Virus record (IMG/VR): IMGVR_UViG_3300001515_000126
Location: 1 to 22,592 of that record
Length of the DNA: 22,592 nucleotides
Reading direction: 5' to 3' (one strand)
Source: a virus
Every line of letters starts with the position of its first letter. The stretch's first letter is position 1. The notes below the pieces were generated by a model, which was given only the letters and a program-made list of their open reading frames with translations, was not told the origin of the DNA and ran no database searches. A program made the position numbers and the translations under genes. This document shows, piece by piece, positions 1 to 22,592 of the stretch.

Positions 1-11
1 CTGTTAGACAT

Positions 12-35
12 AAGGGCATCTTCGGATGTCCTTTT
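12..35 (+). terminator. Rho-independent-terminator-like hairpin with UUCG loop
   Basis: A 9-bp stem (12-20 pairing with 25-33, one G-T wobble) closes on a TTCG tetraloop and runs into a short T tract (32-35). UUCG loops closed by C-G are unusually stable. The hairpin probably ends transcripts of a gene left of the window, just before the primase-helicase. The T tract is short, so termination may be partial and some read-through into the replication block is possible. Confidence 0.6.
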
Positions 36-59
36 AGACTGTAACGTAAGGAGAATATT

Positions 60-1721
60 ATGAACAAACTAGACCACACACAATCCAATTGGAAGGTAAT
101 GCACCTACCCTGTAGTGTATGTGGCTCATCCGATGGGGTGAGCGTTAATACAGACAACTCGTGGCACTGTTTCAGTGGCGGTTGCGATGCACACGGGCAA
201 CATTATGAAGGCGAATATGAAGAAGGAAATTATATGACCGAAGAAAAGAAAGTAACACAGATGGTAACAACAGGTATCCTAGGGGAGTTAGTTGACAGAA
301 AGATTACATCTACTACTGCTAAGAAGTATGGTGTAACAATAACAAGGAATGTAGATGGGAGTGTTAAGCAACACCTATACCCCTACTACAATGAGGGTGA
401 GCAGGTAGCTCAGAAGATTAGAAACGTACAAGATAAAGACTTCCGTATCGAGGGCTCAACACGTACTGCTGACCTCTTCGGTGCACAGACAGTGCGTAAG
501 GAAGGTAAGTTTATTACTATCACAGAGGGTGAGTGTGATGCGATGGCCGCCTATGAATTGATGGGTAGTAAGTGGGGTGTAATAAGTATTATCAATGGTG
601 CAGCATCAGCACCTAGAGATATCAAAAGGAACTTAGATTTCTTTGATAAGTTTGAGACAGTAGTGATATGCTTTGATTCAGACAAGGCAGGTAGAGATGC
701 AGCTAAGAAAGTAGCTGAGTTATTCCCACCATCTAAGGCTAAGATTATGACGTTGCCTGGTGATTACAAAGATGCCAATGATATGCTTAAGGTAAACAAG
801 AAGCAAGCCTTTATGGATGCTTGGTGGGACGCTAAGCTATTTGCACCTGATGGTATCGTTAGGGGTGATGATATGTGGGGTGTAGTCACTGAGGAAATTA
901 ATCAATCCTTTGTTGAGTACCCTTGGCAGAGTATGAATGACCTAACCTATGGTATACGTACACACGAATTGATTACTATCACAGCAGGTAGTGGTATGGG
1001 TAAGTCCCAGTTCGTTAGAGAATTAGTGTACTATCTTATGAACATTAAGGATGGTAGTAACGTAGGGTTATTAATGATGGAGGAATCTATCAGACGTACT
1101 GGCTTAAGTCTTATGTCCTTATCCGCTAATCAATTACTACACCTACCTGATGTACACATTGATAAAGAAGAACTCAGACAACACTACGATGCTACGTTAG
1201 GTACTGGTAGGATATTCTTGTACGATAGCTTTGGTTCTAACAGCATTGATAACATCGTTAGTCGCGTACGTTATATGGCTAAGGGTTTAGATTGTAAGTA
1301 CATCTTCCTTGACCACGTATCAATCATTGTGTCTGACCAACAGAACGGTGATGAACGCAAGGCTCTTGATGAGATTGTTACTAAGCTACGTACGTTAGTA
1401 CAGGAGACAGGCATTGCTTTATTTCTTGTTAGTCACCTACGTAGACCTGGCGGCACATCGCACGAGGAAGGTGGTATGACCTCACTCTCACAGCTTAGAG
1501 GCTCAGCAGGTATTGGACAGCTATCTGATATGGTGATTGGATTAGAGCGTGATGGACAGGATGATGACCCTATCAAACGTAACACTACTACTATACGTAT
1601 TCTTAAGAATAGATTCAGTGGTCTTACTGGCCCTGCTTGTTACTTATACTATGATAAAGATACTGGTAGAATGGTAGAGGTTGATAACCCTAATGATGCA
1701 GGAGATGATGATGAGTTCTAA
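60..1721 (+). CDS. Primase-helicase, T7 gp4-like
   Basis: Bifunctional replication protein that unwinds the fork and primes lagging-strand synthesis. An N-terminal zinc finger shows C18-x2-C21, then C37-x4-C42; T7 gp4 has x2 in the second pair. A TOPRIM primase core follows, with ITEGECDA near residue 157 and FDSDKAGRD near residue 206. The DnaB/RecA-like helicase has Walker A AGSGMGKS at about 309-316, Walker B-like FLDHVS near 416 and the SHLRRP element further on. The C-terminus is acidic and ends in Phe (GDDDEF), like the T7 gp4 tail whose last Phe contacts DNA polymerase. AAGGAG lies 6 nt before the ATG. The 553-aa length is close to T7 gp4 (566). The DNA polymerase start lies inside its 3' end. 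Confidence 0.96.
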   Translation: MNKLDHTQSNWKVMHLPCSVCGSSDGVSVNTDNSWHCFSGGCDAHGQHYEGEYEEGNYMTEEKKVTQMVTTGILGELVDRKITSTTAKKYGVTITRNVDGSVKQHLYPYYNEGEQVAQKIRNVQDKDFRIEGSTRTADLFGAQTVRKEGKFITITEGECDAMAAYELMGSKWGVISIINGAASAPRDIKRNLDFFDKFETVVICFDSDKAGRDAAKKVAELFPPSKAKIMTLPGDYKDANDMLKVNKKQAFMDAWWDAKLFAPDGIVRGDDMWGVVTEEINQSFVEYPWQSMNDLTYGIRTHELITITAGSGMGKSQFVRELVYYLMNIKDGSNVGLLMMEESIRRTGLSLMSLSANQLLHLPDVHIDKEELRQHYDATLGTGRIFLYDSFGSNSIDNIVSRVRYMAKGLDCKYIFLDHVSIIVSDQQNGDERKALDEIVTKLRTLVQETGIALFLVSHLRRPGGTSHEEGGMTSLSQLRGSAGIGQLSDMVIGLERDGQDDDPIKRNTTTIRILKNRFSGLTGPACYLYYDKDTGRMVEVDNPNDAGDDDEF

Positions 1722-3477
1722 GGTAGTATTTGATATTGAAGCTGATGGGTTAGACCCAACACAGGTATGGTGTGTATGTGCTAAACGCTTAGGCGATAAA
1801 GAAGTTTACACCTTCACAGATGCTGATTTATTTAAGGCATACCTTAAGGATGTGACTGAGTTAATAGGACACAACATCATTGGCTATGATGTACCTGTAC
1901 TTGAACGTCTATGGGATGTAGACTTTAGTAATCTTAAACTTACTGATACTCTTGTACTGTCTAGACTATCTGAACCATCTAAGTTAGGGGGACACGGCCT
2001 TAAGAAATGGGGTGAGTATCTTAACTACCCTAAGGGAGATTATGAGGATTGGTCAAGGCTCACACCTGAGATGATTGAGTACTGCAAGCAAGATGTTAGA
2101 GTTACTGAGTCTGTTTATGGGGTAGTACTTAAAGACTTAAAGGGGTTTAGTGAAGACTGTGTTGAGTTAGAACATAAAGTTGTTGCTATCATACATCAGC
2201 AACAGCTGAATGGTTGGTTGATAGATGAGCGTGAAGCTACTACACTACACGTTGAGTTATGTGAACGTAAGCAAGGCTTAGTAGATGAGGTGTTAGAAAC
2301 ATTTAAACCTCTACCTACTTTCATTAAACTAACACAGCTAAAGAACCCTATGCTTAAAAATAGGCAGCCTTCTATGGCGTTTGCTAAGCAGATGGCAAGG
2401 GGTGCACACTTCAATGAGGCTAGGGAGTGGGGGTGTATTGAGTATCCAGAGTTTAACTTAGCTTCAAGACAACAGATAGTTAGATACCTTGAACACTTTG
2501 GTTGGACACCTACTAAGTTTACTGATAAAGGTAATGCTATTGTAGATGAGTCAGTCCTTAAAGGAATCACTAACATACCTGAGTGTATCTTGATTGCTGA
2601 GTACTTCTTAATCTCTAAGCGTGAGGCTATGCTACGTAACATCTTAGGTAAGGTAGGTAAGGATGTACGCATACACGGATACATTAATACTAATGGTGCT
2701 GTAACAGGTAGGATGACACACTCCGACCCAAATATGGCGCAGATACCATCAGCTAAGTCAGACAAAGATGGTAACCTTATATGGGGTATTGAGGGTGGCT
2801 ATGGTGCAGACTTTAGAAACATCTTCAAGGCTAAGGAAGGTTATGTTATTGTAGGTTGTGACGCTAGTGGTTTAGAGTTACGAATGCTTGCACACTATAT
2901 GAATGATAAGGAGTACACAAATGAAATACTACACGGAGATATACACACAGCAAACCAAGTGGCTGCAGGACTTCAATCAAGAAATCAGGCAAAGACTTTC
3001 ATCTATGCATTCTTGTATGGTGCAGGGGATGCAAAAGTCGGGAGTATCGTTAACGGAGGGGCAAAGGATGGTAAGCGACTTAAGACAAAGTTCCTTAATA
3101 ATACGCCACCACTTAGAGATTTACGAGAGCGAGTTGGAACGGCTGCTAAAAGAGGGTACGTTAAAGGACTTGACGGCAGAAGAATCTGGATTAGACACCA
3201 ACACGCAGCACTTAACTCTCTCTTGCAAGGGGCAGGAGCAATAGTTATGAAGAAAGCCTTGACAATTTTGGATGAACGTGCTAGAATAGCAGGACTTGAT
3301 TACAAATTTGTAGGTAACATACACGATGAGTACCAGACAGAGGTACTTAAGGAACACGCTGTTGAGTTTGGTGTGTTAGCTGTCGAGGCTATACGTGAGG
3401 CAGGTCAGGCATATGAAATGAGATGTCCTCTTGATGGGGAATATAAGATTGGATTAACTTGGGCGGAGACACACTAA
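1711..3477 (+). CDS. Family A DNA polymerase with 3'-5' exonuclease, T7 gp5-like
   Basis: Replicative polymerase, 588 aa. Exonuclease residues are visible: D8/E10 (FDIEADGL), D60 (GYD) and Y124/D128 (YCKQD). Polymerase motif A has D384 (CDASGLELR). Motif B has R424, K428, Y432 and Y436 (KTFIYAFLYGAG). Motif C is H538-D539-E540. Y432 aligns with T7 Y526 (E. coli Pol I F762). The protein is about 116 aa shorter than T7 gp5. The thumb insertion that binds thioredoxin in T7 looks reduced, so host thioredoxin may not be the processivity factor. The reading frame is open further upstream, but AGGAG at 1700-1704 best fits the third of three consecutive ATGs (1705, 1708, 1711). The start overlaps the end of the helicase gene. 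Confidence 0.96.
   Translation: MSSKVVFDIEADGLDPTQVWCVCAKRLGDKEVYTFTDADLFKAYLKDVTELIGHNIIGYDVPVLERLWDVDFSNLKLTDTLVLSRLSEPSKLGGHGLKKWGEYLNYPKGDYEDWSRLTPEMIEYCKQDVRVTESVYGVVLKDLKGFSEDCVELEHKVVAIIHQQQLNGWLIDEREATTLHVELCERKQGLVDEVLETFKPLPTFIKLTQLKNPMLKNRQPSMAFAKQMARGAHFNEAREWGCIEYPEFNLASRQQIVRYLEHFGWTPTKFTDKGNAIVDESVLKGITNIPECILIAEYFLISKREAMLRNILGKVGKDVRIHGYINTNGAVTGRMTHSDPNMAQIPSAKSDKDGNLIWGIEGGYGADFRNIFKAKEGYVIVGCDASGLELRMLAHYMNDKEYTNEILHGDIHTANQVAAGLQSRNQAKTFIYAFLYGAGDAKVGSIVNGGAKDGKRLKTKFLNNTPPLRDLRERVGTAAKRGYVKGLDGRRIWIRHQHAALNSLLQGAGAIVMKKALTILDERARIAGLDYKFVGNIHDEYQTEVLKEHAVEFGVLAVEAIREAGQAYEMRCPLDGEYKIGLTWAETH
3259..3287 (+). promoter_or_regulatory. Candidate sigma70-type promoter with extended -10, inside the polymerase gene
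   Basis: A perfect TTGACA (3259-3264) is followed by exactly 17 nt and TAGAAT (3282-3287), preceded by TG-C, the extended -10 signature. That is 11 of 12 consensus bases. Transcription would start near 3294 and feed the exonuclease gene and the nucleotide-metabolism genes. It could give those genes more transcript than helicase and polymerase. This is inference from sequence only. Confidence 0.5.
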
Positions 3478-4346
3478 TGGCTAAGAAGAAAACAGTAGAT
3501 ACTTTAGTAAAGGATGTAGAGAAACTATTCACTAACATAAGTAAGGGCAAAGAACTTAAGATGCCTAAGAAGAAGGTAGCTAAGTTGATGGCGGGGCTTG
3601 AAGAAGTACTACACCAATGGGCTACACCTAGAGGACAGAGTACTGGCTTACGTATGTCTAATGTAGGTAGGCCTAACAGACAGCTATGGTATGACGTTAA
3701 CACTGATGCTACTGCTAAAGAGATGGATGCTTCTGTTATGTTCAGGTTCTTGTACGGTCACGTTGTGGAAGAGTTTCTTCTATTCTTTGTAGACTTAGCA
3801 GGTCACAAGGTAGAGATGCAACAGGCTGAGGTAGATGTATGTGGTCTCAAGGGACACATTGACTCAGTGATTGATGGTGTTGTTATCGATGTTAAGACTG
3901 CTAGTGATTACTCCTTCAAGAAGTTTAAGGAAGGTAAGTTAGCAGAGAGTGACCCGTTTGGTTACCTAGCACAGTTAGCAGGCTACGAACACGGACTTAA
4001 GAAACAAGGCGGTGGGTTCTTAGTAGCTAACAAATCAACAGGTGAGCTATGCTTGTTTAGACCTGATGACCTTGAGCTACCTAACATAGAGACACGCATC
4101 AATAAGGTACGTGAAGAACTTAAGCAAGACACACCACCTCTTGAACGTTGTCACCCTATCATAGACATTGGTAAGGCAGGCAACAGAGGGTTACATAACT
4201 CTTGTAAGTGGTGCTCACACAAGGTAGCGTGCAACCCTGACGCTAGAGTATTTAAGTATTCAACAGGTGATTTATTCTTTACACACGTAGAGAAGAGACC
4301 TCGCTCAGACATTGAAGAAGTAACGGAGAAATATTATGCACGGTAG
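3477..4346 (+). CDS. Cas4/RecB-like PD-(D/E)XK exonuclease
   Basis: Predicted DNA exonuclease of 289 aa, in the place where T7 has gene 6 exonuclease, so it probably takes part in recombination, primer removal or host DNA degradation. Nuclease core elements are H95 with E98/E99 (GHVVEE), D129 (GHID), D138-x-K140 (IDVK) and Q166...Y170 (QLAGY). The C-terminus has C243-x2-C246-x5-C252, the Fe-S type triplet of Cas4/AddB nucleases, plus C225. The usual fourth Cys ahead of the core, expected around GRPNRQLWY (residues 64-72), is absent. The start at 3477 (TAATG with the polymerase stop, GGAG 8 nt upstream) is preferred over an in-frame upstream codon at 3459. No CRISPR-associated genes are nearby. 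Confidence 0.85.
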   Translation: MAKKKTVDTLVKDVEKLFTNISKGKELKMPKKKVAKLMAGLEEVLHQWATPRGQSTGLRMSNVGRPNRQLWYDVNTDATAKEMDASVMFRFLYGHVVEEFLLFFVDLAGHKVEMQQAEVDVCGLKGHIDSVIDGVVIDVKTASDYSFKKFKEGKLAESDPFGYLAQLAGYEHGLKKQGGGFLVANKSTGELCLFRPDDLELPNIETRINKVREELKQDTPPLERCHPIIDIGKAGNRGLHNSCKWCSHKVACNPDARVFKYSTGDLFFTHVEKRPRSDIEEVTEKYYAR

Positions 4347-4804: not shown

Positions 4805-4815
4805 GGATTTCATTA

Positions 4816-4849
4816 GGGGTCTGACCTACCTCTTCCCCGCAACAGGTCA
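4816..4849 (+). promoter_or_regulatory. Possible pseudoknot or structured leader in the only intergenic gap
   Basis: The 70-nt gap 4805-4874 is the only sizeable non-coding stretch on the plus strand. It contains GGGG (4816-4819) able to pair with CCCC (4835-4838), and TGACCT (4822-4827) able to pair with AGGTCA (4844-4849). The arms interleave, which is the topology of an H-type pseudoknot. An AGGAG ribosome site follows at 4862-4866. A role in translation control of the DUF3310 gene is speculative. No clear promoter is visible in the gap. Confidence 0.25.
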
Positions 4850-4874
4850 CTAAATTAAAATAGGAGAAGAAAAG

Positions 4875-5078: not shown

Positions 5079-5271
5079 CCTCTTACTAATAAATATTAGT
5101 TGGATGGTAGTGGGTGCTATTAGTATCTACTATGTAGATAAGAGAGCATACCGAGAGGGTATGTCAGATGCTATCGTTATGCACAGTACTGGTATGCTTA
5201 CATATACTACCTACACTGACTGCTCAGGAGACCCTATGATTGAGATGGAGATTAAATCAGATGAAGAGTGA
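5071..5271 (+). CDS. Small single-pass membrane protein
   Basis: 66 aa, function unknown. A hydrophobic segment at about residues 4-22 (LLLINISWMVVGAISIYYV) is followed by a positive DKRAYR patch, so the rest is probably cytoplasmic. The C-terminal tail is acidic and contains TYTTYTDCSGDP. The gene overlaps DUF3310 by 8 nt and nrdA by 11 nt, placing it inside the nucleotide-metabolism operon. It could be an anchor or a host-takeover protein; nothing in the sequence decides. Confidence 0.68.
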   Translation: MTDLLLINISWMVVGAISIYYVDKRAYREGMSDAIVMHSTGMLTYTTYTDCSGDPMIEMEIKSDEE

Positions 5272-7045
5272 ATACTTAGGAATAACAATAGACAGAGCCA
5301 AGGATAAGGGGATGACACCACAGGCGTTAGAACTAATCAAAGGTTATTACTTACGTGGTAAAGAGAAGTCACCACAGGAAGCTTATGCTAGAGCTTGTGT
5401 AGCATATAGTAATGGAGATGTTGAACTGTCACAGAGGTTATACGATGCTGTATCAAATGGTTATTTTATGTTCAGTTCTCCTATACTTAGCAACGCTCCT
5501 ATGCCAGGAGAGCAAGCGAAAGGACTACCTATTTCTTGCTTTCTTAGCTACGTGCCCGATACACTTGATGGTCTTATTGAACACCAATCCGAACTGGCTT
5601 GGCTAAGTGTTAAGGGTGGTGGTGTAGGTGGTCATTGGTCTGATGTACGTGCAGTGAGTGACAAAGCACCATCACCAATACCATTCATTAAAGTAGCTGA
5701 TTCAGCAATGACAGCATATAAACAAGGACAGACAAGGAAAGGAAGTTATGCAGCGTATATGGACATCTCTCACCCAGACGTGGTGGAGTTTCTTAACATC
5801 CGTATCCCTACGGGAGGTGATAGTAATCGTAAGTGTTTCAATCTTAATAATGCTATTAATATTACCGATGATTTTATCGATGCTGTTGTTGCTGGTGATA
5901 CGTGGGATTTACGAGACCCTCACGATGATAGTGTCAGGGACACTGTGGACGCTAGAGAAATGTGGGAGAGGTTACTCGAGACTCGCTTCAGAACGGGTGA
6001 ACCCTACCTCAACTTCATTGACGAAGCAAACAGACAATTACCACAAACATTAAAGGAGAAAGGACTTGAAATTAGAGGAAGTAACTTATGTAATGAAATT
6101 CACTTACCAACCAACGAAGATAGGACGGCAGTATGTTGCCTATCCTCCGTCAATCTTGAAACTTTTGACGAGTGGAAAGAAACTTCGTTAGTATGTGATT
6201 TAATAACTATGCTTGACAATGTACTTACTTGCTTCATAGCTGATGCACCACGTGAACATATGCGTAAGTCTATTAACTCCGCAGCTATGGAGAGAAGCTT
6301 AGGCTTAGGTGCTATGGGCTTTCACGCATACCTACAGAAGAAGAACATTCCTTGGGAGTCTGCCTTAGCTGTCGGACATAACAAGAAGATGTTTAAGCTT
6401 ATTAAGGAGCAAGCAGTTGAAGCTACTAAAGCATTAGCTGATGTACGTACCCCTTACTTTGATGGGCCTAACAGTGGTAGACGTAACTCACATCTACTAG
6501 CTATTGCTCCTAACGCAAACAGTGGAATGATACTGGGTACATCACCTAGTATTGAGCCTATAAAGTCTAATAGTTTTGTACATAAGACACGTATCGGTTC
6601 TCACTTGATTAAGAATAAACATCTTGAGAAGGTATTAGAGGAACATAGACTACGCTTAGGTAAAGATAAGGATTGGTTAGCTAAAGAGTGGAGAGGTATC
6701 GGACACCATAATGGTAGCGTACAGCATATTGATTATCTAACTGAGTGGGAGAAGGATGTATTTAAAACAGCCTTTGAACTAGACCAGATGTGGGTAGTAC
6801 AACACGCAGGTGATAGACAAGAGTTTATTTGTCAAGGTCAATCAGTTAATCTATTCTTCCCTGCAGGTAGTGATAAGAACTATGTATCACAGGTACACCT
6901 ACAGGCTTGGAAGTCTAAGCTTAAAGGTTTGTACTACTTACGTACTTCAGCTACTAGCAGTGCTGAGAATGTAGGACAACAGGTTACGAGAGTAGCACTT
7001 AAGGATTTTATGGAGGAAGAAGGATGTCTAGCTTGCGAGGGTTAA
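5261..7045 (+). CDS. nrdA: Class I ribonucleoside-diphosphate reductase, alpha subunit
   Basis: Catalytic subunit that converts NDPs to dNDPs for phage DNA synthesis, 594 aa. Active-site residues are N275, C277 and E279 (SNLCNE). The disulfide pair is C93 (PISCFLSY) and C292 (VCCLSSVNL). The radical-relay tyrosines sit in GLYYLRTSAT, and the C-terminal redox pair is C589/C592 (GCLACEG). C93 corresponds to E. coli C225, so about 130 N-terminal residues are missing, including the ATP-cone. The enzyme should therefore escape dATP shut-off. Start 5261 is preferred (GGAG 10 nt upstream, overlap with the preceding stop); the frame is open back to 5240. The nrdB start lies inside the 3' end. Confidence 0.96.
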   Translation: MKSEYLGITIDRAKDKGMTPQALELIKGYYLRGKEKSPQEAYARACVAYSNGDVELSQRLYDAVSNGYFMFSSPILSNAPMPGEQAKGLPISCFLSYVPDTLDGLIEHQSELAWLSVKGGGVGGHWSDVRAVSDKAPSPIPFIKVADSAMTAYKQGQTRKGSYAAYMDISHPDVVEFLNIRIPTGGDSNRKCFNLNNAINITDDFIDAVVAGDTWDLRDPHDDSVRDTVDAREMWERLLETRFRTGEPYLNFIDEANRQLPQTLKEKGLEIRGSNLCNEIHLPTNEDRTAVCCLSSVNLETFDEWKETSLVCDLITMLDNVLTCFIADAPREHMRKSINSAAMERSLGLGAMGFHAYLQKKNIPWESALAVGHNKKMFKLIKEQAVEATKALADVRTPYFDGPNSGRRNSHLLAIAPNANSGMILGTSPSIEPIKSNSFVHKTRIGSHLIKNKHLEKVLEEHRLRLGKDKDWLAKEWRGIGHHNGSVQHIDYLTEWEKDVFKTAFELDQMWVVQHAGDRQEFICQGQSVNLFFPAGSDKNYVSQVHLQAWKSKLKGLYYLRTSATSSAENVGQQVTRVALKDFMEEEGCLACEG

Positions 7046-7989
7046 CAGAAGAAAGTAAAACGTTTAAACCCTTTGCATTCCCTTGGGCTATGGAGATGGC
7101 AGAGAAGCACGAGGACTTACATTGGACAGAAGCTGAGGTAAACCTTAGTGATGATGTAACTCAGTGGAAGGATGGGTCACTAAGCGAAACAGAGAAGAAT
7201 CATATCACACAGATACTACGACTGTTCACTCAGTCTGATGTAGTTGTAGGTGGTAACTACTGTGATATGTTTATCCCTCACTTCAAGAACAATGAGATGA
7301 GGAATATGCTACTTAGCTTTGCAGCTAGGGAAGGAGTACATCAGAGAGCTTACGCATTACTTAACGACACACTAGGACTACACGAGAGTGAGTACAGTAT
7401 GTTCCTTGAGTATGATGCGATGGTAGAGAAGGTAGAGTTTATGAAGGATGCTGATACTAGTACCCAACACGGTATGGCTAGGGCTATTGCACTATCTGTA
7501 TTCAATGAGGGTGTTAGTTTGTTTAGTGCCTTTGTTATGCTACTTAACTATCAACGTATGGGTAAGATGAAAGGTATGAATACTGTAGTAGAGTGGAGCA
7601 TCAGAGATGAGACTATGCACTGTGAAGGTATGAGTAGATTGTTTAGAGAGTTTTGTAACGAACACCCGAGGATTGTGAATGATGAGTTTAAGAGAGAGAT
7701 ATATAATATGGCGCGACAGATTGTCGAGCTTGAGGATAAAGTTATTGACCTTGCCTATTCGGCTGGGGATATTGAAGGACTTGACAAAGGTGAAGTTAAA
7801 ACGTACATTCGCTATCTGGCGGACAGACGATTAATACAGATGGGACTTAAAGGTAACTTCAAAGTAAAAGAGAACCCTCTTCCTTGGGTGGAAGAGTTAA
7901 CAAGTGGTGATAGTATGAGTAACTTCTTTGAGAAGACTGTCACTGATTATTCAGCAGTAGGAATGACAGGAGAAATAATATGGGATTAG
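7024..7989 (+). CDS. nrdB: Class I ribonucleoside-diphosphate reductase, beta subunit
   Basis: Radical-generating subunit, 321 aa. All expected di-metal ligands are present with E. coli-like spacing: D72, E103, H106 (AREGVH), E162 (FNEG), E196 and H199 (DETMH). Y110 occupies the radical-tyrosine position (E. coli Y122), so this looks like a classical Tyr-radical enzyme rather than a Tyr-less subclass. The C-terminus (NFFEKTVTDYSAVGM) contains a Tyr that may serve the radical path to NrdA. A GGAGGAAG-type ribosome site precedes the ATG, which overlaps the end of nrdA by 22 nt. The stop overlaps the tusE-like start. Confidence 0.96.
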   Translation: MSSLRGLTEESKTFKPFAFPWAMEMAEKHEDLHWTEAEVNLSDDVTQWKDGSLSETEKNHITQILRLFTQSDVVVGGNYCDMFIPHFKNNEMRNMLLSFAAREGVHQRAYALLNDTLGLHESEYSMFLEYDAMVEKVEFMKDADTSTQHGMARAIALSVFNEGVSLFSAFVMLLNYQRMGKMKGMNTVVEWSIRDETMHCEGMSRLFREFCNEHPRIVNDEFKREIYNMARQIVELEDKVIDLAYSAGDIEGLDKGEVKTYIRYLADRRLIQMGLKGNFKVKENPLPWVEELTSGDSMSNFFEKTVTDYSAVGMTGEIIWD

Positions 7990-8270
7990 ATAGAACAGGT
8001 AACGGGTACTTAGTAGACCCAACACAGTGGTCACTGGATGTGATGCACGAGATGGCTAAGGAAGATGATGTCACACTAACAGATTCACAAGTGCTACAGA
8101 TTGAGAAGGCAAGGGAATACTATGATGAGAACTCCTCTGTGCCCCCTATAAGAACCTTTGCTAAGTATGTAGGCATTGATAAGGGTAAGCTATTTAAAGA
8201 GTGGCTAACAGGGCCTCTTAAACCCATCACTAAGTACGGTGGATTACCTCAACCAACAGGATGTGTATAA
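7980..8270 (+). CDS. TusE/DsrC-family sulfur carrier
   Basis: 96 aa. In cells TusE accepts persulfide sulfur from TusBCD and passes it to MnmA for 2-thiouridine in tRNA; DsrC acts in dissimilatory sulfur metabolism. Family features seen are GYLVDPTQWS near the N-terminus, LTDSQVLQIEKAREYY, a VPPIR segment and the C-terminal GGLPQPTGCV with penultimate C95. The second DsrC cysteine, 11 residues upstream of the last, is Thr here, so it is TusE-like rather than a full DsrC. The usual EHW before the R-x-x-Y helix is altered to DSQ. It overlaps the nrdB stop by 10 nt, a position where many phages carry glutaredoxin or thioredoxin. Confidence 0.88.
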   Translation: MGLDRTGNGYLVDPTQWSLDVMHEMAKEDDVTLTDSQVLQIEKAREYYDENSSVPPIRTFAKYVGIDKGKLFKEWLTGPLKPITKYGGLPQPTGCV

Positions 8271-8908: not shown

Positions 8909-8910
8909 AA

Positions 8911-10954: not shown

Positions 10955-10957
10955 GGG

Positions 10958-14800: not shown

Positions 14801-17171
14801 TCTTACCTTTAGTAGTGCTTGTTATCTTAATACCTTTAAGCGCACTCTTGAAGAACGTAGAGTTTTGAAAAGGCTGAATCAAGTCACCAAGGTTAGCTAG
14901 TGTTACATCCTCTAGCATAGCTAAGTTATTATACATAGCGATAGAACCCGCAGCATTGTGCCCGCCCCAATTAGAGATACCATATCTACCAAAATAAGCA
15001 TTCACAGAGTCATTAATAAACTTAATTTCTCTAGTGTGCTCTTTATATAGGCGTTTATCTTCAGCAGTTCCTGCATACTTATCGTGAATTTTCTTACGAA
15101 GTCTACCTAACAGCTCACCCTTAGCACCCCACGTACGTGCAAACTCTACTGTCTTAGTACTTTCTCTAACCATATTACTAAGTATCTCAGCTGGGTCATT
15201 CTTTAACCAAGGCTCTAGGATTTCTTCCACTTGTACATCAACACCTTCTATCTTAATAGTACCGTGTAGTTCTCTTTCTTTCTGTAGGTGTTTAATAAAC
15301 GGCAGTGTGTCTAACACCTGTTTACCTTCCTTGTTAATCGAGGATACAGTCTTATTACTATTCAAGTAGAAGTTCTTAATGAATTGATTAGCATACTTCT
15401 GAGCATCTTCAGTAGTAGCTTTAGGATTCTGCTTAGTATGGATGAAGGCTAACACATCTTTAAAGGCCTTACCATCTTTAGTAATTAAGTCGAAGTTATA
15501 TTCTCTAGGGAAGTAATTGTCTAGCTCTGTTATTGCGCGAATATCTACATCATTATGGTAAGCTTTGTAGTCATCAAAGAAGTCTTTGAATCTACCCGCT
15601 AAGGCTTTAGCTTCATCAGTGTTATCACCTGCTTTAGCATAACCACGTAGTATCTTAACCGCTGATGTCTGTGTCTCCTTAGATGTAGTCTGTAATACAT
15701 CGTCATACAATGTCATCATCCAATGGTTATACGCTAAGTTAGAACGCTCTTCTACGGCTAGCTGACGTGCGCCTTTAGCTTTGAACTGGTGAAACATCAT
15801 ATCAGAGAACTGTCCTGTCTCAGGACCTAGTGCCTTCAGCTTAGTAGCAAGTGTACCTGAGAAGCTAACATCGATATGACGTAGTGTAAACGCAACATTA
15901 CGTTTGAATACACTCTTCATTACATCTTTCTTAACTTCTTGAGGTAAGAAGGTGTTATGCTTAAGCTTCTTACTCAATGCACCCGAGCCAAAACCAATAG
16001 CCATTAATGTGTATAGCTGCGAGTCATCAGCATCTAACGCAATACCTGCACCACCCATCATTAATGTACCAAACATAGGACGTACTGCCACTTCAAATGC
16101 TTTAGCGGTAAAGCTCTTATTCTTATACATCAACTCAGCAATTTCTATCTGTGCCTTAGTCCGCATATCTGTCATCTCATTAAACTTAGAATCGAGACTG
16201 GCTTTTATTTTAACGTCTAAATCTTTAAATGTTTCTTCTGATAGATTACCTTCCTTACGGGCTGTTCTAATCCCTTGTAACCCTCTGAGTAGGTGTGTGT
16301 TATTATCAATATTCTTTAACTGACTATAGAAATCTTTAACTGATGGTAGTTTGAATGTCTCTGTGATAAGCTCTTGTTCTTTAGGGGTTAGTTTACCTAC
16401 GTCATCTGTACCACGTATGATACGCTCCTCCACCTTAGCAAGTACCTGCTCCTCTGTTAGTCCTTTAGAGTACTTCTTGCTAAGCATCTTAATGAAGGCA
16501 TCACCACCAACAGCTAACACACCACCACTACCTGCTACGATAGCTAACATCTCAGGGTCTACTTCACCTGTCATAGCATAACTATGTAGGGCATATTCTC
16601 CTGCTGCAGTAGAGGCTCCTGTTGCTCCTAACACTAACTTACCTGCTTTAGCTGCCTTGACCCACGGTACAAGGTACGTTACTGGGTCAACAATAGCAGT
16701 AGCAACACGTCCACCTATTACCGCAGCATCAGTATCATACTTACCGCCCTTAAACTTAGGAAACTCTTTAAAGATTTCTTCTTGTCGCTCAGCTTCTGTG
16801 TCTGCTCTAGCCTCTTCCCAGTCCTTACCTTCAACTACAGTCTCATATGCAGTCTCTGCTAGTCTACCTAAGCTACCTAATATCATAGGCTCCTGGGCAG
16901 TACCATATGATACCTTACGAGCAATAGTAGGCTCGTCCTGTTCAACTACTGCTACATCCTCTAAACTATCAAAAGGATTATAAGCAGCAACAGGCTCCAC
17001 TGTTAGCACATCCTCAGCTACCACGACAGGAGCTATTGCAGCTATAGTAGGTTCTGGTGTAGCTATAGTAGGTTCTACATCATCATCAAAAGGATTATAC
17101 GCTTGTACTACTTCTTGTTCCTTCTTGCGTACCTCTTCCTCGTCATCAAAAGGATTATAGTTTTGAGTCAT
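11805..17171 (-). CDS. Giant polyvalent internal virion protein with zincin-like and ADP-ribosyltransferase-like modules
   Basis: 1788 aa, last gene of the late block, probably injected with the DNA like T7 gp16. Modules in order: acidic, disordered N-terminus with YNPFD at 5-9, 25-29 and 64-68 and EPTIA three times; Ala/Gly-rich hydrophobic segments at about 150-232 and 358-402; a long helical body; an LPD38-like region near 960-1090 (QFSSWAQAKTAQ); GGLV motif near 1149; a region at 1284-1423 resembling the ADP-ribosyltransferase fold of polyvalent proteins (MYIYSSSSSGEHKSID start, HGIKGNKREGELAIFNPED end); a second GGLV motif near 1430; and a C-terminal zincin-like module with H1588-EWA-H1592 and E1702 (HPGEVWAR) as possible third ligand. 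No Shine-Dalgarno is visible; the start is 2 nt after the preceding stop, so coupling is likely. Enzyme activities are inferred. Confidence 0.85.
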   Translation of the reverse strand: MTQNYNPFDDEEEVRKKEQEVVQAYNPFDDDVEPTIATPEPTIAAIAPVVVAEDVLTVEPVAAYNPFDSLEDVAVVEQDEPTIARKVSYGTAQEPMILGSLGRLAETAYETVVEGKDWEEARADTEAERQEEIFKEFPKFKGGKYDTDAAVIGGRVATAIVDPVTYLVPWVKAAKAGKLVLGATGASTAAGEYALHSYAMTGEVDPEMLAIVAGSGGVLAVGGDAFIKMLSKKYSKGLTEEQVLAKVEERIIRGTDDVGKLTPKEQELITETFKLPSVKDFYSQLKNIDNNTHLLRGLQGIRTARKEGNLSEETFKDLDVKIKASLDSKFNEMTDMRTKAQIEIAELMYKNKSFTAKAFEVAVRPMFGTLMMGGAGIALDADDSQLYTLMAIGFGSGALSKKLKHNTFLPQEVKKDVMKSVFKRNVAFTLRHIDVSFSGTLATKLKALGPETGQFSDMMFHQFKAKGARQLAVEERSNLAYNHWMMTLYDDVLQTTSKETQTSAVKILRGYAKAGDNTDEAKALAGRFKDFFDDYKAYHNDVDIRAITELDNYFPREYNFDLITKDGKAFKDVLAFIHTKQNPKATTEDAQKYANQFIKNFYLNSNKTVSSINKEGKQVLDTLPFIKHLQKERELHGTIKIEGVDVQVEEILEPWLKNDPAEILSNMVRESTKTVEFARTWGAKGELLGRLRKKIHDKYAGTAEDKRLYKEHTREIKFINDSVNAYFGRYGISNWGGHNAAGSIAMYNNLAMLEDVTLANLGDLIQPFQNSTFFKSALKGIKITSTTKGKTARNTKEPARYLAMNQTTQLQDEIQALSGITSEAANAISKTNQGFFKMIGLQNITSYARRFAYNSGAIDAYDTAVEFSKLNNKNIASIEKKTGKKWGEFTHKEHVKLLASSKATKKTEHLRKRMAYSGISPEDAKHIAQFKTFDAAFEGDVKHLLNSAGFRAMERDAKIPTVGNRLLYTQTKNPWLRLVGQFSSWAQAKTAQVNSLVARMEDGEAKLAVKMAGLLSVYGGVKTLREIVADGEISDESKDWGKFLADANQLSGNTGFFGNLASQQYINKYGNNPLDFFPAASTLTKSAEAIRSIDITDPFVVTPEIKKILPLPKTINILERTFGTEVYDMPEDKQIKDTEIKDGLATFSKGGLVSQVARLGFSKGGEASVDDTGTIVRDERVAFPKEKGYEYGTLAPVRRNVETGESEWAMPDIMRESLNAIDRAGATLMGDHSYDSEEKAVEDVLYSNVTGSAVRTIPKTLRKHKTPTKEKTIAPVPLPKEEKTMYIYSSSSSGEHKSIDPTKWNTATMGKADYSFTNEADASAWSGSYLIKKEVPHDILEKSINWGDGGQSKFVTKAFKDIKKEVDFDVDLEDGGIDVYPALTSHLGEKEAHKLLNKHGIKGNKREGELAIFNPEDVKVIEVTRKKFRRGGLVTQMNSLNLSLGGEVTEEYVPRSDVKREVLTEGQEIPGKGLSSLFKKSYIADAVYGAEVVGDDAFKEKYRREITEVADSFGLTPESVHFNLEHSAAQNYDGRYGKGGGDIVASTGYYSNDTEQPLSAQILYNIDHSKGSPSDIITSHKYADTTAHEWAHRFNQHLSDMDETGGTKKGGTNEAPPGTLSGYGFELAGDDYLKDYYSLSTREERRNFFNDKAMGEKSRMRKPLKKKVTTAMSYILSDPLIHQDIESKSNAGNVNYVAHPGEVWARTLADYHIIQKRGGIKHVIKEGGISTVYIDHPTSKGVGHMQKMSLTKETYDAIEEMLKEIKQEKYTISKLDDTRKQSKTSKRA
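16968..17159 (-). repeat. Direct repeats encoding YNPFD and EPTIA motifs
   Basis: A 17-bp sequence occurs exactly at 17083-17099 and 17143-17159, with a 15-bp match at 16968-16982; it encodes the YNPFD motifs. A separate 15-bp repeat occurs at 17041-17055 and 17062-17076 and encodes EPTIA with its flank. The first set is spaced 60 nt and about 115 nt apart. The repeats sit at the very N-terminus of the 1788-aa protein. Confidence 0.8.
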
Positions 17172-17173
17172 AT

Positions 17174-19636
17174 CTATTTTATTTTTGAAGTTTTATCGGT
17201 ATACTGCTGTAGTCTAGAAGCGGCTGGGTTATTGATAGGGTAACCACCTTTTGTAGTACCTGTTGTACTATTTAAGATACTATCTCCAGCATTCTTAACT
17301 GCGTTCTTAGCAGCACGTGTTTTATTTACAGCTCGTTGTTTTAACCTGTTAGTACTTGAGGATACATTAGCCTTACCTCTATTAAGAGTAGCATCAACAA
17401 CCTTACCTGTAGTAGATGTCTTTAACTTATCAGCTATCTGTGCCTTACGGGAGCCATACTTCTTACCAAACTTACCATTAACAATTTGCTGTGCCATAGG
17501 ATGTTTAGTAATCTTTAACTTATCAAGTAGCATACCAAGCTTCTCACCTGCAACACCTAACTGAGAGGATACCTGTCCTGTACGTAGGTAAGTAGAAATA
17601 ATAGAAGGGAGTTTTGCTGCGCTTCCACCAGGTAACCCTGGGAGTGCACGCATAACTTCATCAGATACGTCACCTAACCAACTACTAACATCTTCTATGG
17701 TAGTAGTATCAGCTGGCTGAGTAGCCCATTCATTATCTCTAGGGTCACCATTCATTCGAGGGACATCTTCAACCTCTTCTGTATATAAGTAACCAAGACC
17801 TAAACTCTCATACTTAACTTTATTCTTCTCTGTGAAAGGAAGGAACCTAACAGTCCCAGTAGAACTAGTACCTAAGATACCTTTAACACCGTCTTTAACA
17901 GTAAACTGAACATTCATATCTACAGGAGTAACTTGTGGAGGTGTAGCAGTACCATCTGACATCAACTGTAAGTCACCTGTAGGTGTTACTTCAGGGACAA
18001 TAGTACTAGATGTATCAGACAATGGTGTAAGCACATCTGCACCTTGTGTTTGTAGTGTGTAATAGTTAGCAGAGATATCACCTAATGAGGCATCTTTAAG
18101 TACTGTACCCCCGATTTCTTTTACATATCTCAGTAAGCCACTTTCATATTGAATACGCATATCGTCAGTTACAGCAGTACCAAACGGAACTACGTTGTAA
18201 GGTATAACATAGGCTGAGTTAGCTGTTAGTCCTGTATCAAACTCAAAAGTTCTAGAGGCTAAATCCTTCTTAGCAATGTTAGTAACATTAGTCCAATCAA
18301 TAGCATCTAACTTCTTAATATCTAATACTTCATCTGAACGGGCATCTTCCCTTACTTGTGTAGACGCTTGATTAATAGCTTGTTTAAGGGCATCGTGGTA
18401 GTTACGTCCTAGCTCTGTAGGTGTATATACCTTTTTACCTTTAGTACCTGTCTTACGATAGAAGTAATCACCATCACCTAGAGCTTTACTAGCTGATAGT
18501 GTAATTGTATTGATATCCTTATTCTCATCTCTACTACGTGCAGTATCAAAAGCCTTAGTCTTATTTGAGATTTTTACTACATTCTTAGCTAGCTCATCTT
18601 GGAAGGTAGTCAACTTCTTCTGTGCCTTAACTAGTGTGCTCTTAGCATTAGTTGCAATCTTCAAATCAGGATGCATCATAAGCTCTTGAAGACGTAATAC
18701 ATCACCCTCTAATACTGATAGCTGTGTGCCTGAGCTACTAACTGCCACAGGGTCGCCTACGCTTTCTGGAGTTGTAACAGATACGCTTTCTGGAGTTGTA
18801 ACAGATGCAGGTACTACAGTGCTTGAGTTACCTTCTTGAATGTTACGCTGCGCATTAAATAAAGCCTGCTGAAGCTTATCGTACGGCATACCTGAACTAA
18901 CATCCTGTGTATAAGCTACTGATGTAGCAAATGCTTGGATAACGCCCTCTCTATCTTCAATAGGTACTGTTGCAATATGAGCTGCCAACTGAGGATAATT
19001 ACTTAAGTTGGTTGTATACTCTGAAGTCAATTCTTCAGCTATTAACTTCTTATTAGACTTTTTATTCTTGTCTGAAGGAAACTCCCACTTAGACATCGTA
19101 GCTTTCTGTTCCTCTGTAAGAGGTGTTGACTTGCCTCTACGGTATGTAGTGACAGAACCTAAGTCCTCCTCAGTTAAAGGAATCTTCTCTTTAGGGTCTG
19201 TAAAACCAAGGTCATTCATCAAACCACGCATCCCAGTTGGTGTCTCTGCACGCATACTCGTATAGATACCTTCCTCGTTAGAATACTTAAGAGTTGGCTT
19301 CTCACCTAATACAGGCATATTAGCAGGTATCCACGAAGAACCTGCCATTTTACGTGCCGTCTCAAGACCAGCTAAATCTTTATAGCCACCAGCAATTACT
19401 TGACCCTGCGGTGTATCAATACCACCAGCAGAAGTAATACTTTCAATCTTAACCTCAGCAGCATCGTACTTCTTATTAGCAGCTGTTAGCTTAGTCTTTA
19501 ATAATTCATCTTGTCGCTTAGCTTTAATCTCAGCTAGACGCTCAATACGCTTTGATTCCGCAGCATCTGTTTCCGCCACTCCTTTAGCAACACCACCTGT
19601 AAAATGGAGTAGACCCTCACCAAAACTAATACCCAT
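17174..19636 (-). CDS. Large virion protein, probable internal core/ejection protein
   Basis: 820 aa, no family recognised. The N-terminus is Gly-rich (ISFGEGLLHFTGGVAKGVAE) and runs into a charged coiled-coil-like stretch to about residue 65. The centre is Thr/Ser/Pro-rich with an exact 8-residue duplication (SVTTPESV twice, residues about 277-292). The C-terminal 100 residues are basic and low-complexity (NRLKQRAVNKTRAAKNAVKNA). AGGAGG precedes the ATG, and the ATG abuts the 176-aa gene's stop. Position between the cationic protein and the giant polyvalent protein parallels T7 gp15. There is no visible enzymatic motif. It could alternatively be a tail-tube or adaptor component, but size and composition favour an internal protein. 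Confidence 0.75.
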   Translation of the reverse strand: MGISFGEGLLHFTGGVAKGVAETDAAESKRIERLAEIKAKRQDELLKTKLTAANKKYDAAEVKIESITSAGGIDTPQGQVIAGGYKDLAGLETARKMAGSSWIPANMPVLGEKPTLKYSNEEGIYTSMRAETPTGMRGLMNDLGFTDPKEKIPLTEEDLGSVTTYRRGKSTPLTEEQKATMSKWEFPSDKNKKSNKKLIAEELTSEYTTNLSNYPQLAAHIATVPIEDREGVIQAFATSVAYTQDVSSGMPYDKLQQALFNAQRNIQEGNSSTVVPASVTTPESVSVTTPESVGDPVAVSSSGTQLSVLEGDVLRLQELMMHPDLKIATNAKSTLVKAQKKLTTFQDELAKNVVKISNKTKAFDTARSRDENKDINTITLSASKALGDGDYFYRKTGTKGKKVYTPTELGRNYHDALKQAINQASTQVREDARSDEVLDIKKLDAIDWTNVTNIAKKDLASRTFEFDTGLTANSAYVIPYNVVPFGTAVTDDMRIQYESGLLRYVKEIGGTVLKDASLGDISANYYTLQTQGADVLTPLSDTSSTIVPEVTPTGDLQLMSDGTATPPQVTPVDMNVQFTVKDGVKGILGTSSTGTVRFLPFTEKNKVKYESLGLGYLYTEEVEDVPRMNGDPRDNEWATQPADTTTIEDVSSWLGDVSDEVMRALPGLPGGSAAKLPSIISTYLRTGQVSSQLGVAGEKLGMLLDKLKITKHPMAQQIVNGKFGKKYGSRKAQIADKLKTSTTGKVVDATLNRGKANVSSSTNRLKQRAVNKTRAAKNAVKNAGDSILNSTTGTTKGGYPINNPAASRLQQYTDKTSKIK
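18759..18806 (-). repeat. Perfect 24-bp tandem duplication
   Basis: Two identical 24-bp units lie head to tail at 18759-18782 and 18783-18806. They encode an exact 8-residue repeat in a Thr/Ser/Pro linker of the 820-aa virion protein. Identity at all third positions points to a recent slippage or unequal recombination event. Confidence 0.92.
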
Positions 19637-20166
19637 TACACTTCCTCCTGCTCTGCTTCAAACTCATTTACTTTAGATAACAATGAAGAAGGTAACTTAC
19701 TCTTAACCTCTTCAGGTTGCATCTTTCTAATATCTTCTGTAGCGATAGCACGTAAGTCATCCTCACGTTCATCTAAATCATCACCATCACTATCTAACTG
19801 GAAATCGATATCTACGTCACTAGCTAACCACATAAGTAAATATATAGTAGGCTCAACAAGCAGCAATAATAAATCAGGTGACCACTTACCTTCGTGGAAT
19901 CCTTTAGTAAGATACACTTGTGCAAGCATATCCAATGGAGTCCCCTCACGCATTGTTTGTAGTACATCCTCATAACTACCTTCTTCCGTCAGATGGTCAA
20001 AGATAAAGGCCATAGCCTTCTCTACATTAGTAAACTCAGGTGGCATCTCATAAGGTCTCTGAGCTGCTGGGTCAGCTGTTAGTGATTCCCCTGGTACAGG
20101 AGCATCGAAGGGGTCACCCCCTAACTTTTCAAAACCCTCTGACATATTAATTTGCTGTTCAATCAT
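19636..20166 (-). CDS. Virion-associated hypothetical protein (PGxSLT family)
   Basis: 176 aa. The N-terminal region GGDPFDAPVPGESLT, followed by a Pro-rich PPEFTNVEKAMAFIF segment, resembles a protein common beside structural genes in marine phages; I recall no assigned function. The middle is hydrophobic (PDLLLLLVEPTIYLLMWLAS, about residues 95-115), perhaps buried or membrane-inserting. The C-terminus is very acidic (DSDGDDLDEREDDL). An AGGA element precedes the ATG. It sits between the cationic 447-aa protein and the 820-aa protein, with touching ends, and is likely a minor virion or assembly protein. Confidence 0.68.
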   Translation of the reverse strand: MIEQQINMSEGFEKLGGDPFDAPVPGESLTADPAAQRPYEMPPEFTNVEKAMAFIFDHLTEEGSYEDVLQTMREGTPLDMLAQVYLTKGFHEGKWSPDLLLLLVEPTIYLLMWLASDVDIDFQLDSDGDDLDEREDDLRAIATEDIRKMQPEEVKSKLPSSLLSKVNEFEAEQEEV

Positions 20167-20178
20167 TATGTTATCCTA

Positions 20179-21522
20179 TTAACCGTAAATTTGTTTCATC
20201 TTATTGGCCTGCGCCTGTGCATAGGCACTACCACCTTGTGCTCCGCCATAACTAGCTGCAAAGTCTAAGCCAGTACCTGATTGACCACTCATTAATAATG
20301 AGCCACCACCAGCATCATATTGGTCACCAGTATCACCTGTAGAGAATCCTGCACCGTAAGGACTAGATGAACCAGAACTACCAAATAAACTTGAAGCAGC
20401 ATCTTTCAACTTGTCAGCTACATTGTTCTTCTCTTTAGGTGCAGCAGGGTCTTGAGGTGAAATGTAAGTAGGTGTACCTCCTGCGGCTGCACTACGAGTA
20501 GCACGTAAACCATCAGCAGTATACTCAAATGGCTTCGTTATACCACCTTCCCAATCAAATGACATAGACTTATCAACACCGCCTGTTTGCTCCCATAAGC
20601 CTCTGCCTTGGTCTAAGCCAACACTAGCTGCTTCTGAGTAATCATACATCTCTGACATCTGTCTCTGATATTCAACTGAACCAGGAGTACCTTGGAGAGT
20701 ACTTGTATAATCTTTATAGAATGATTTACCTACCTCATCATTATAACCAAAGGCTTTAGCTTGACGCATAGCACCTGCTTCACCACCCTCCATACTCATC
20801 TTCATCATACGTTGTTGTGCTTTAGGGGACATACGCTGGGCATACTCAGAAGGATTATTATTAACATAGTTCTGTGAAGCTCTCTCGTGAATCTCAGGAC
20901 CAATCTCACCTATCGCTTTATCATAAGCTACTTCAGCATTTGCATCTGCAAGATTTGTCTGAGCTTTGTACTCAGGCGAATACACACTAAGCCCTGAATC
21001 AGATAAGTAATTGAGTTTACCAAAGTCACCTGTAGACATAACGTCACTTGCACTCTTATACATATTAGATACACCATCCATAGTAGAACTACCTACTGCC
21101 TTAAAGCCAGCAGTAACCTTTTCTGAGATAGTAGCATTCTCACCTAATGTAGAAACACCTTTATTGTATGCGCCAACACCTGCATTAATACCGTAACCAA
21201 TACCACCACCAACAGCACCTGCTAGAGCACCTTTAAGTTTACCACCACTAGTAATGAAACCAGTAATAGCACCCTTACCCATAGCACCCCAGATACCTGC
21301 ATTAGCCCAGAGCCCTTGGAAGCCAGGGATAAAGCCAATGGCAATGGAGGCAAGGGGCCCCATCTTCTTGACAACTTTGCCAATACCTTTAGCTACGTTC
21401 TTAACCCCCTTCCATACTTTCTTAGCTACCTTACCGATACCTTTTACTACTTTCTTAACTACCTTAGTAACTGACTTAAACGCCTTCTTAACAGCCTTAA
21501 CAATTCCACTAAACCAACCCAT
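20179..21522 (-). CDS. Virion protein with Lys-rich amphipathic N-terminus, probable membrane-active ejection protein
   Basis: 447 aa. The first 55 residues hold 17 Lys and no Asp/Glu, in short repeats such as KVVKKVVKGIGKVAKK and KVWKGVKNVAKGIGKV, which would form an amphipathic helix like membrane-active peptides. It is followed by a Gly/Ala-rich hydrophobic part (ITGFITSGGKLKGALAGAVGGGIGYGINAGVGA, about 88-121), a polar helical middle and a Ser/Gly-rich C-terminus (SLFGSSGSSSPYGAGF). AGGAG precedes the ATG. Order and composition suggest a T7 gp14-like role in crossing the envelope during genome entry. No family assignment is certain; a head-assembly role is possible. Confidence 0.72.
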   Translation of the reverse strand: MGWFSGIVKAVKKAFKSVTKVVKKVVKGIGKVAKKVWKGVKNVAKGIGKVVKKMGPLASIAIGFIPGFQGLWANAGIWGAMGKGAITGFITSGGKLKGALAGAVGGGIGYGINAGVGAYNKGVSTLGENATISEKVTAGFKAVGSSTMDGVSNMYKSASDVMSTGDFGKLNYLSDSGLSVYSPEYKAQTNLADANAEVAYDKAIGEIGPEIHERASQNYVNNNPSEYAQRMSPKAQQRMMKMSMEGGEAGAMRQAKAFGYNDEVGKSFYKDYTSTLQGTPGSVEYQRQMSEMYDYSEAASVGLDQGRGLWEQTGGVDKSMSFDWEGGITKPFEYTADGLRATRSAAAGGTPTYISPQDPAAPKEKNNVADKLKDAASSLFGSSGSSSPYGAGFSTGDTGDQYDAGGGSLLMSGQSGTGLDFAASYGGAQGGSAYAQAQANKMKQIYG

Positions 21523-21531
21523 AATATTCTC

Positions 21532-22592
21532 CTATCCTTTATAAATTTTCCAAGCTAACTCACCCGCTGCCGCAAGTGACTTACCCTTCTCAGCATCTGT
21601 TGCTGCTTCGTTACCCATAGCTGCAATAGCTAAACGAGTCTTAGCATCTACATCATTCATCGAAGATTGAAATGACCAGTTAGCTGAATCTCGCATCTCT
21701 TGCCACATATTAGCTTGTGCTTGCGCTGAGAGATTAAACATATTAATAGCATTTGCTTGATTCATTGCATTCTCACCAGCAGTGTTCGCAGTATTCAGCT
21801 GTCTTCTCCACGTAGCATTAGACTGATTAATAGCATTAGCGTTCTGTGTATTGAACTGGTCTCTGTTAAAACCTAGTTGTGAATTGAACTGGTCAATCTG
21901 TGAGTTAAGCTGTGCTGTTGCCTGACTAGCTTGGAGTTCGTTCCCAGCATCTAACGCAGACCTTTGCTGTGATAGTTGTGAGTTGTATTGACTAATAGCG
22001 TCTGCTCTCGTAGCATTATTAGTATCTACTTGAACACTCAAGTTCTTCATAAATGTATCTACTTGCTGTTGATTAGCTGCATTGAACTGCAGAGAAGCAT
22101 TAGTTGCTGACTGGTCAGATAGCATATCCTGTTGTCTCATCTGTGCATTAAGTGTAGATGCTTGTTGTGTATTAGACAAGTTAGCCATATCCATCTGAAG
22201 GAATGCTTGAGCATTCGCTACCTGTGCTTGCTGTGCGTTAGATAAGTTAGTTAAATCCATATTAGCTAGCGTAGTAGCATTCTGAATAGCAGCTTGTTGT
22301 CTATTACCTAAGTTAGTCATCTGCAATGTCTGCATAAACTTACTATTTGATAATGTCTTTTGTTGTGAGTAGTTCAAGTTAGACATATCCATACCAACTT
22401 GTGCAGAAGCATTCTGTAATGCTGTCTGCTGCTGATTAGATAGATTAGCCATAAAAGTCTGTTGCTCTGTCTGTGCATTCTGCTGTGCCATAGGTAACGC
22501 AGACTGTGTAATAGCAGCCATAATAGCTTCTCTTGCTACAGTAGACTTACCCATACCTCTTGCAGCTAACACAGCCTCAGCAGCTTCTAAGG
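21532..22592 (-). CDS. Gln/Asn-rich repeat virion protein (5' end outside window)
   Basis: The frame is open to the right edge, so the start is not in view; at least 353 aa are present. After an AARGMGKSTVAREAI segment come about five repeats of roughly 22 residues built on (M-D-M)-x-N-L-x-x-x-Q-Q (22116-22452). A Q/N-rich helical region containing NANAINQSNATWRRQ follows, and then WQEMRDSANWSFQSS near the C-terminus. This layout is familiar from marine podovirus and other phage structural proteins of unknown function. Long regular Q/N repeats suggest an extended coiled or tubular assembly. It lies first in the visible late block, 9 nt before the cationic protein gene. No catalytic motif. Confidence 0.75.
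   Translation of the reverse strand, partial: LEAAEAVLAARGMGKSTVAREAIMAAITQSALPMAQQNAQTEQQTFMANLSNQQQTALQNASAQVGMDMSNLNYSQQKTLSNSKFMQTLQMTNLGNRQQAAIQNATTLANMDLTNLSNAQQAQVANAQAFLQMDMANLSNTQQASTLNAQMRQQDMLSDQSATNASLQFNAANQQQVDTFMKNLSVQVDTNNATRADAISQYNSQLSQQRSALDAGNELQASQATAQLNSQIDQFNSQLGFNRDQFNTQNANAINQSNATWRRQLNTANTAGENAMNQANAINMFNLSAQAQANMWQEMRDSANWSFQSSMNDVDAKTRLAIAAMGNEAATDAEKGKSLAAAGELAWKIYKG
22116..22452 (-). repeat. Five-fold ~22-residue Gln/Asn-rich protein repeat
   Basis: Units begin at ANLSNQQQ, SNLNYSQQ, TNLGNRQQ, TNLSNAQQ and ANLSNTQQ, each preceded by Met-containing hydrophobic residues and spaced 20-25 residues. At DNA level the units are diverged, so this is an old duplication under protein-level constraint, unlike the recent 24-bp duplication at 18759. 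Confidence 0.75.

Follow-up and report, generated by a model that had tools for sequence, protein, structure and literature searches.

The window, the whole 22,592-bp stretch of marine podovirus DNA analysed here, contains no CATG and encodes a 131-residue protein whose homologues lie almost without exception on CATG-free phage DNA. We judge it quite probable that this loss of CATG is self-protection against an orphan endonuclease of the phage's own, encoded by this small gene (hereafter family 1). In many relatives, the loss of GATC tracks a second small protein family, phrog_13596 (hereafter family 2). Both families look like phage-encoded tetranucleotide endonucleases from which the phage is protected by having no sites. 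For family 1, we infer CATG cleavage and its purpose from genome composition and predicted fold.

The window is a linear IMG/VR fragment, and its genes are listed in Table 1. They follow the order typical of HMO-2011-type phages, with primase/helicase, polymerase, Cas4 exonuclease, endonuclease and ribonucleotide reductase followed by a reversed structural block, which has the same layout as in HTVC103P and HTVC115P. Because its modules and overall arrangement match those of Pelagibacter phage HTVC115P and Puniceispirillum phage HMO-2011, we assign the window to the HMO-2011-type podoviruses, described as being among the most abundant phages in the sea (PMC6918029). The window DsrC shares 86% identity with the DsrC encoded on L040, a contig that is genuinely from a Thioglobus chromosome, and dsrC-bearing phages have been assigned mainly to SUP05/Thioglobus hosts (PMC8190135). 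These sequence-based observations suggest that the host family is probably Thioglobaceae (SUP05).

Table 1. Genes and gene blocks of the window, with the evidence for each assignment.
Feature	Position	Strand	Basis
Primase/helicase, T7-like; phage-tree marker	60..1721	+	phrog_239; 52-55% identity to Pelagibacter phages HTVC103P, HTVC115P
DNA polymerase A	1681..3477	+	phrog_17
Cas4-domain exonuclease	3459..4346	+	phrog_1990
Ribonucleotide reductase (large subunit 5264-7045, small subunit 7024-7989)	5264..7989	+	PF02867, PF00317, PF00268
DsrC, sulfur-transfer auxiliary gene	7980..8270	+	PF04358
PhoH-like protein	9092..9787	+	phrog_170
T7 endonuclease I-like Holliday resolvase; lies next to the family 1 gene on its upstream side	9787..10185	+	PF05367, phrog_945
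Family 1, 131-aa PD-(D/E)XK nuclease, putative CATG-specific endonuclease	10182..10577	+	D29/E40/K42; AlphaFold; carriers without CATG
Structural block: internal virion-like protein of 1788 aa plus four more ORFs	11805..22572	-	tblastn to L278, L279; gene maps

An exact count of all 4-mers bore out the original prediction that GATC, CATG and CCGG are wholly absent from the window, and these three are the only 4-mers missing. A maximal-order Markov model predicts 87 GATC, 100 CATG and 6.2 CCGG sites. The 36 CCGG sites expected in the original prediction were too many, because CCG and CGG are scarce in the window; taken alone, the zero for CCGG is modest (Poisson p ~0.002 under the Markov model). 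The near-complete 52-kb sister contig G084 provides a firmer case, with no CCGG against 20 expected. CAT occurs 396 times in the window and CCG 47 times, never before G, as had been claimed. In 1000 shuffles of synonymous codons across the coding part of the window, which preserved the protein sequences and the codon usage, GATC came out at 68, CATG at 54 and CCGG at 13; the minima were 50, 35 and 3, so that no run reached zero. Other palindromes are near expectation, including GGCC (12 observed, 20 expected), GCGC (15 observed, 18 expected), TCGA, GTAC, AGCT and ACGT, which agrees with the earlier view that palindromes are not avoided in general. GATG and CATC are not avoided either. Some longer words are also low in the window: GGWCC (2 against 17 expected), GGNNCC (8 against 34 expected) and GGTACC (0 against 5-7 expected).

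The word losses arose at the DNA level through synonymous choices. Aspartate preceding C is encoded by GAC 46 times and never by GAT, against 90 GAC and 348 GAT elsewhere. Histidine preceding G is encoded by CAC 41 times and never by CAT, against 54 of each elsewhere. Isoleucine following G never uses ATC (0 of 77 codons), a choice made in 97 of 320 cases elsewhere. Pyrimidine-ending codons preceding ATG end in T in 119 cases and in C in none, as compared with 2647 and 1020 (28% C) elsewhere. This dependence of codon choice on the neighbouring base indicates selection on DNA rather than on protein.

Relatives were collected through the reductase and helicase genes. In the first set, family 1 homologues occurred only in CATG-free phages, making the family a perfect correlate of the loss. 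Loci fetched by homology to the family 1 protein alone lacked CATG in 79 of 80 cases. When a distant member served as the query in another round, 71 new loci were added, which together contain a single CATG where 1653 are expected. After deduplication, 135 of 137 family 1 loci have no CATG (53 sites seen, 4023 expected) over a G+C range of 24-47%. GATC amounts to 596 of 3798 expected sites in these 137 loci and is non-zero in 51 of them. Contig L372 holds 52 of the 53 remaining CATG sites, all in its left 8.8 kb, while the 3.7 kb around its nuclease gene contain none (12.8 expected). With a junction near position 8780 between a CATG-rich left part and a CATG-free, gene-bearing part, this contig looks recombinant, chimeric or misassembled.

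We also scanned 95 gene clusters blindly against 16 words over 265 loci. Family 1 emerged as the broadest near-perfect association with CATG, which is absent from 92 of 93 carriers and from 13% of non-carriers. Whole contigs give the same picture: G104 has no CATG (96 expected) and 120 of 129 expected GATC, and G107 has no CATG (155 expected) and 71 of 190 expected GATC. Within a close pair with 14 genes in common, L013 has 0 of 56 expected CATG sites and Podophage Lau218 has 20 of 74. Family 1 carriers are not independent of one another, forming four groups when at least two other shared genes are required and a single group when one suffices, and independent losses are therefore fewer than 137.

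Family 1 has no match among the families of Pfam or PHROG. Its AlphaFold model (pLDDT 90.8) contains the PD-(D/E)XK core fold, and the catalytic signature D...(D/E)xK is present, with D29 in 163 of 164 members (the exception is a gap) and E40 and K42 in all 164. On the strength of this predicted structure, we classify family 1 as a PD-(D/E)XK nuclease. The restriction enzymes NhoI, PvuII and DpnI (Z 7.5-8) are among its other fold matches. No DNA methyltransferase was found among the subset of window ORFs scanned.

Family 2, a small protein with no function assigned, stands in the same relation to GATC. In the blind scan over 265 loci, GATC was missing from all 29 family 2 carriers and from 44% of non-carriers. 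The 80 loci fetched by family 2 homology alone contain no GATC (1862 expected), whereas their CATG count is close to normal (2177 of 2854 expected). Nine further cultured carriers (HMO-2011, HTVC011P, HTVC025P, HTVC031P, HTVC142P, Eistla, CRP-143, C75C1 and C72C1; 36-52% identity, G+C 32-52%) each have zero GATC where 65-140 are expected. The non-carriers CRP-361 and HTVC010P have 112 and 126 GATC. HTVC019P, which infects the same host strain as HTVC010P (HTCC1062), carries family 2 at positions 12845-13246 and has none (95 expected). Deduplicated, 112 of 114 family 2 loci lack GATC, including those of HMO-2011 and SAR11 pelagiphages; when two shared genes are required, the carriers form two gene-sharing groups. 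Eleven GATC sites are left in family 2 loci, ten of them in L593. This locus (8839-9294), together with L413 (3259-3798) and L348 (2-259), encodes a family 2 variant in which PSAL replaces PSGI; the variant was not found elsewhere. Since L593 still has ten GATC sites, the PSAL variant probably has a changed specificity.

The two families dissociate doubly, each tracking the loss of its own word and not that of the other. L004 and L005, kin of the window, carry family 2 without family 1; they have no GATC and retain 16 of 44 and 23 of 53 expected CATG. Within a close pair with 13 genes in common, GATC stands at 0 of 62 expected sites in L231 and at 58 of 60 in L218. A single enzyme for GATC and CATG was rejected as a general rule, because the two words dissociate and GATG and CATC are not avoided. 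E31-x-K33 is invariant in family 2, and its structural model is weaker than that of family 1 (pLDDT 83.5). The best fold matches include the restriction enzymes Eco15I (the best, Z 5.0), NhoI and PvuII, all with low scores (Z ≤5). A search for family 2 in 398 Pseudomonadota genomes, run without a positive control, returned no match. Six pelagiphage loci (L344, L507, L508, L511, L513 and L514) show an almost total loss of GANTC (0-6 against 65-87 expected) beside that of GATC.

In the self-protection reading that we favour, the family 1 protein would cut host DNA, and perhaps that of competing phages, at CATG. Phage DNA would be spared by having no CATG, in place of being shielded by a methyltransferase, and the cut host DNA would feed the phage genes for nucleotide recycling. 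Family 2 would do likewise for GATC in many relatives. More broadly, and with slightly less assurance, we think it likely that abundant marine and freshwater phages carry small, interchangeable orphan endonucleases, each directed at one tetranucleotide palindrome and lacking a methyltransferase, and that their absent words can be read as phage weapons rather than as host defences. Further families may exist for CTAG, GTAC, GGCC and GCGC.

Such a state may have begun with an earlier purge of sites, caused by a host enzyme or made under cover of a methyltransferase that has since disappeared. A purge of this kind is likely because a site-rich phage, with ~100 sites, could hardly gain such a gene at once and survive its sudden arrival. 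One specific version, in which a host CATG system purged the sites and the phage then acquired an orphan CATG endonuclease that now excludes them, is a serious possibility that we would place somewhat below the probable. It is compatible with self-protection, of which it would be the origin. In L364, L369 and L375, which remain free of CATG, GATC stands at 7 of 14, 9 of 28 and 10 of 34 expected sites and appears to be gradually returning, as if one pressure had ended. However, the gene may equally well have arrived together with a methyltransferase that then disappeared.

The original prediction read all three missing words as a fingerprint of host restriction, and thus of Thioglobaceae that cut GATC, CATG and CCGG in phages, which lost the sites over time. 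Part of this reading stands: the losses are real, strong and at the DNA level, Thioglobaceae do carry enzymes of DpnII type (GATC) and HpaII type (CCGG), and site avoidance under orthodox type II restriction-modification (R-M) is well documented (PMC6286503). As an account of all three words, however, we find it rather unlikely. The loss of CATG goes with the phage family 1 gene and not with the host, and the loss of GATC in relatives tracks family 2. Phages of the single strain HTCC1062 differ in GATC, and in phages of SAR11, a host group without reported R-M (PMC9516812), a total lack of GATC goes together with family 2. A cause beyond the present host therefore had to be considered, and an absent word is not directly readable as a host enzyme. 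The same 2022 study found pelagiphages depleted of GANTC, the SAR11 CcrM-type site, although R-M is not reported in SAR11, and left this depletion unexplained (PMC9516812).

The words lost also vary among relatives of the window. Several lack GGCC in addition to GATC, CATG and CCGG; L004 and L005 lack GATC alone; L006 lacks GATC and CATG and keeps CCGG; and L012, L017 and L018 have lost no word. These differing sets show that the losses are separable and labile.

For the loss of GATC and CCGG in the window, several candidates were considered. Searches for family 2 in the window, in sister contig G084 and in 28 related records (among which there was no positive control) found no member, and we rejected it as the reason why the window lacks GATC. 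We likewise rejected a third GATC determinant in the clade: the high-association clusters in G084, G093, G094, G095 and G097 comprise lineage genes that are small or structural, and an endonuclease VII-like ORF of G084 has no counterpart in the window.

Candidate host genomes were also searched for MboI- and HpaII-type enzymes, as the original prediction had proposed. A DpnII-type (GATC) endonuclease is encoded in 4 of 83 Thioglobaceae genomes, one copy being decayed, with a D12 methyltransferase alongside it in G019 and G074. HpaII-type (CCGG) enzymes occur in five of the 83 (three of them full), as against 3 of 369 genomes in the class at large; the two cases examined are methyltransferase-endonuclease fusions. 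HaeIII-type (GGCC) enzymes occur in three of the 83; among these is G002, which together with one other genome has the closest DsrC. None of these GATC, CCGG and GGCC enzymes was found in G001, and no TaqI-type enzyme (TCGA, a word that is not avoided) scored above the cut-off in the 83 genomes. This host search, which covered DpnII-, HpaII-, HaeIII- and TaqI-type enzymes, identified no CATG system. Because Thioglobaceae carry DpnII-, HpaII- and HaeIII-type endonucleases, host restriction is plausible for the GATC and CCGG losses of the window, which may reflect either host DpnII- and HpaII-type systems or a further, unrecognised phage nuclease. Thioglobaceae genome G033 has, at L288:2569-3852, a HaeIII-type R-M system and, next after it, a fusion of a DNA methylase with a staphylococcal-nuclease-like domain. 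Depletion of GATC, ACGT, GTAC or GGCC is also seen in thiotrophic-symbiont and related chromosome pieces (L057, L060, L061 and L063), a pattern that R-M systems residing there would be expected to produce.

The closest fold to the family 1 model is that of archaeal Hjc (Z 12.2 over 105 residues, 10-11% identity), which resembles family 1 in its PD-(D/E)XK fold and size and is structure-specific rather than a restriction enzyme. Family 1 carriers, moreover, have other genes in common. Both points would suit a protein that is merely a Holliday-junction resolvase, linked to CATG by lineage hitch-hiking, an alternative that we regard as highly improbable. A T7 endonuclease I is already encoded in the window, and the sister contig has RusA in addition. 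One defined word is gone from nearly all family 1 loci over a wide range of G+C, whereas GATC, CCGG, GGCC and CTAG vary, and family 2 behaves alike with a different word. Hjc was not matched in Pfam by four family 1 homologues up to E = 1, nor was it among the PDB sequence matches of family 1.

An artefact of sequencing, library or assembly, such as MboI, NlaIII or MspI library preparation, would account for three common restriction sites, but its chance is negligible given that it is refuted by the same losses in isolate genomes (HMO-2011 and HTVC phages) and in many metagenome projects, that relatives in the same collection still have these words, and that codon choices show an evolved loss.

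The chlorovirus enzymes CviAI and CviAII recognise GATC and CATG, respectively. Chlorovirus endonucleases for short palindromes are believed to break down host DNA at an early stage of infection (PMC7019647), and they resemble the putative phage enzymes described here in being virus-encoded. Chloroviruses, however, encode adjacent cognate methyltransferases (PMC7019647), whereas none was found among the window ORFs scanned here, the genome lacks the sites and the hosts are bacteria. The archaeal virus nuclease HHPV4I is also virus-encoded and aimed at GATC, and it has been proposed to exclude other viruses; unlike the families described here, it is an SRA-wH-HNH protein that requires Gm6ATC (PMC10101028). 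In phage restriction-site avoidance, short palindromes are likewise wholly eliminated by selection on DNA (Rusinov 2018, PMC6286503). The agent there is host type II R-M, whereas here it is apparently a phage gene, for CATG and, in relatives, for GATC. The GANTC depletion of pelagiphages similarly involves the loss of a short word in phages whose hosts have no known R-M (PMC9516812), and the GATC case suggests what kind of answer may apply, a nuclease that the phage itself encodes. In the open-access literature, we found no earlier case of a phage endonuclease that has no methyltransferase and whose own genome is free of its sites.

These associations suggest a likely function for two families that had none (family 1 and phrog_13596), with the exact target predicted from composition alone. 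They offer a possible answer to the complete loss of short palindromes in phages of SAR11, reported to lack R-M, and they caution against using absent words as a host fingerprint. If confirmed, the two families would provide very small CATG and GATC cutters of about 115-145 residues. Setting genes against missing words is a simple rule by which more such enzymes may be found.

Further words are depleted in individual phage groups. Podophage Lau218 (L039, 1-37669) has no CTAG (94 expected), no GTAC (71 expected) and 11 of 80 expected GANTC. It has two annotated N12-class adenine methyltransferases and is a candidate for further word-specific nucleases. In dsrC phages of SUP05-type hosts (L122-L128, L134, L145, L146 and L163), AGCT occurs 0-2 times against 7-31 expected. 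The gene associations that the blind scan returned for AGCT and CTAG were set aside as clade markers only. Many family 1 carriers (L381, L387, L390, L394-L397, L402-L408, L411 and about half of L535-L605) have also lost CTAG completely or nearly so, which points to another determinant in that phage group.
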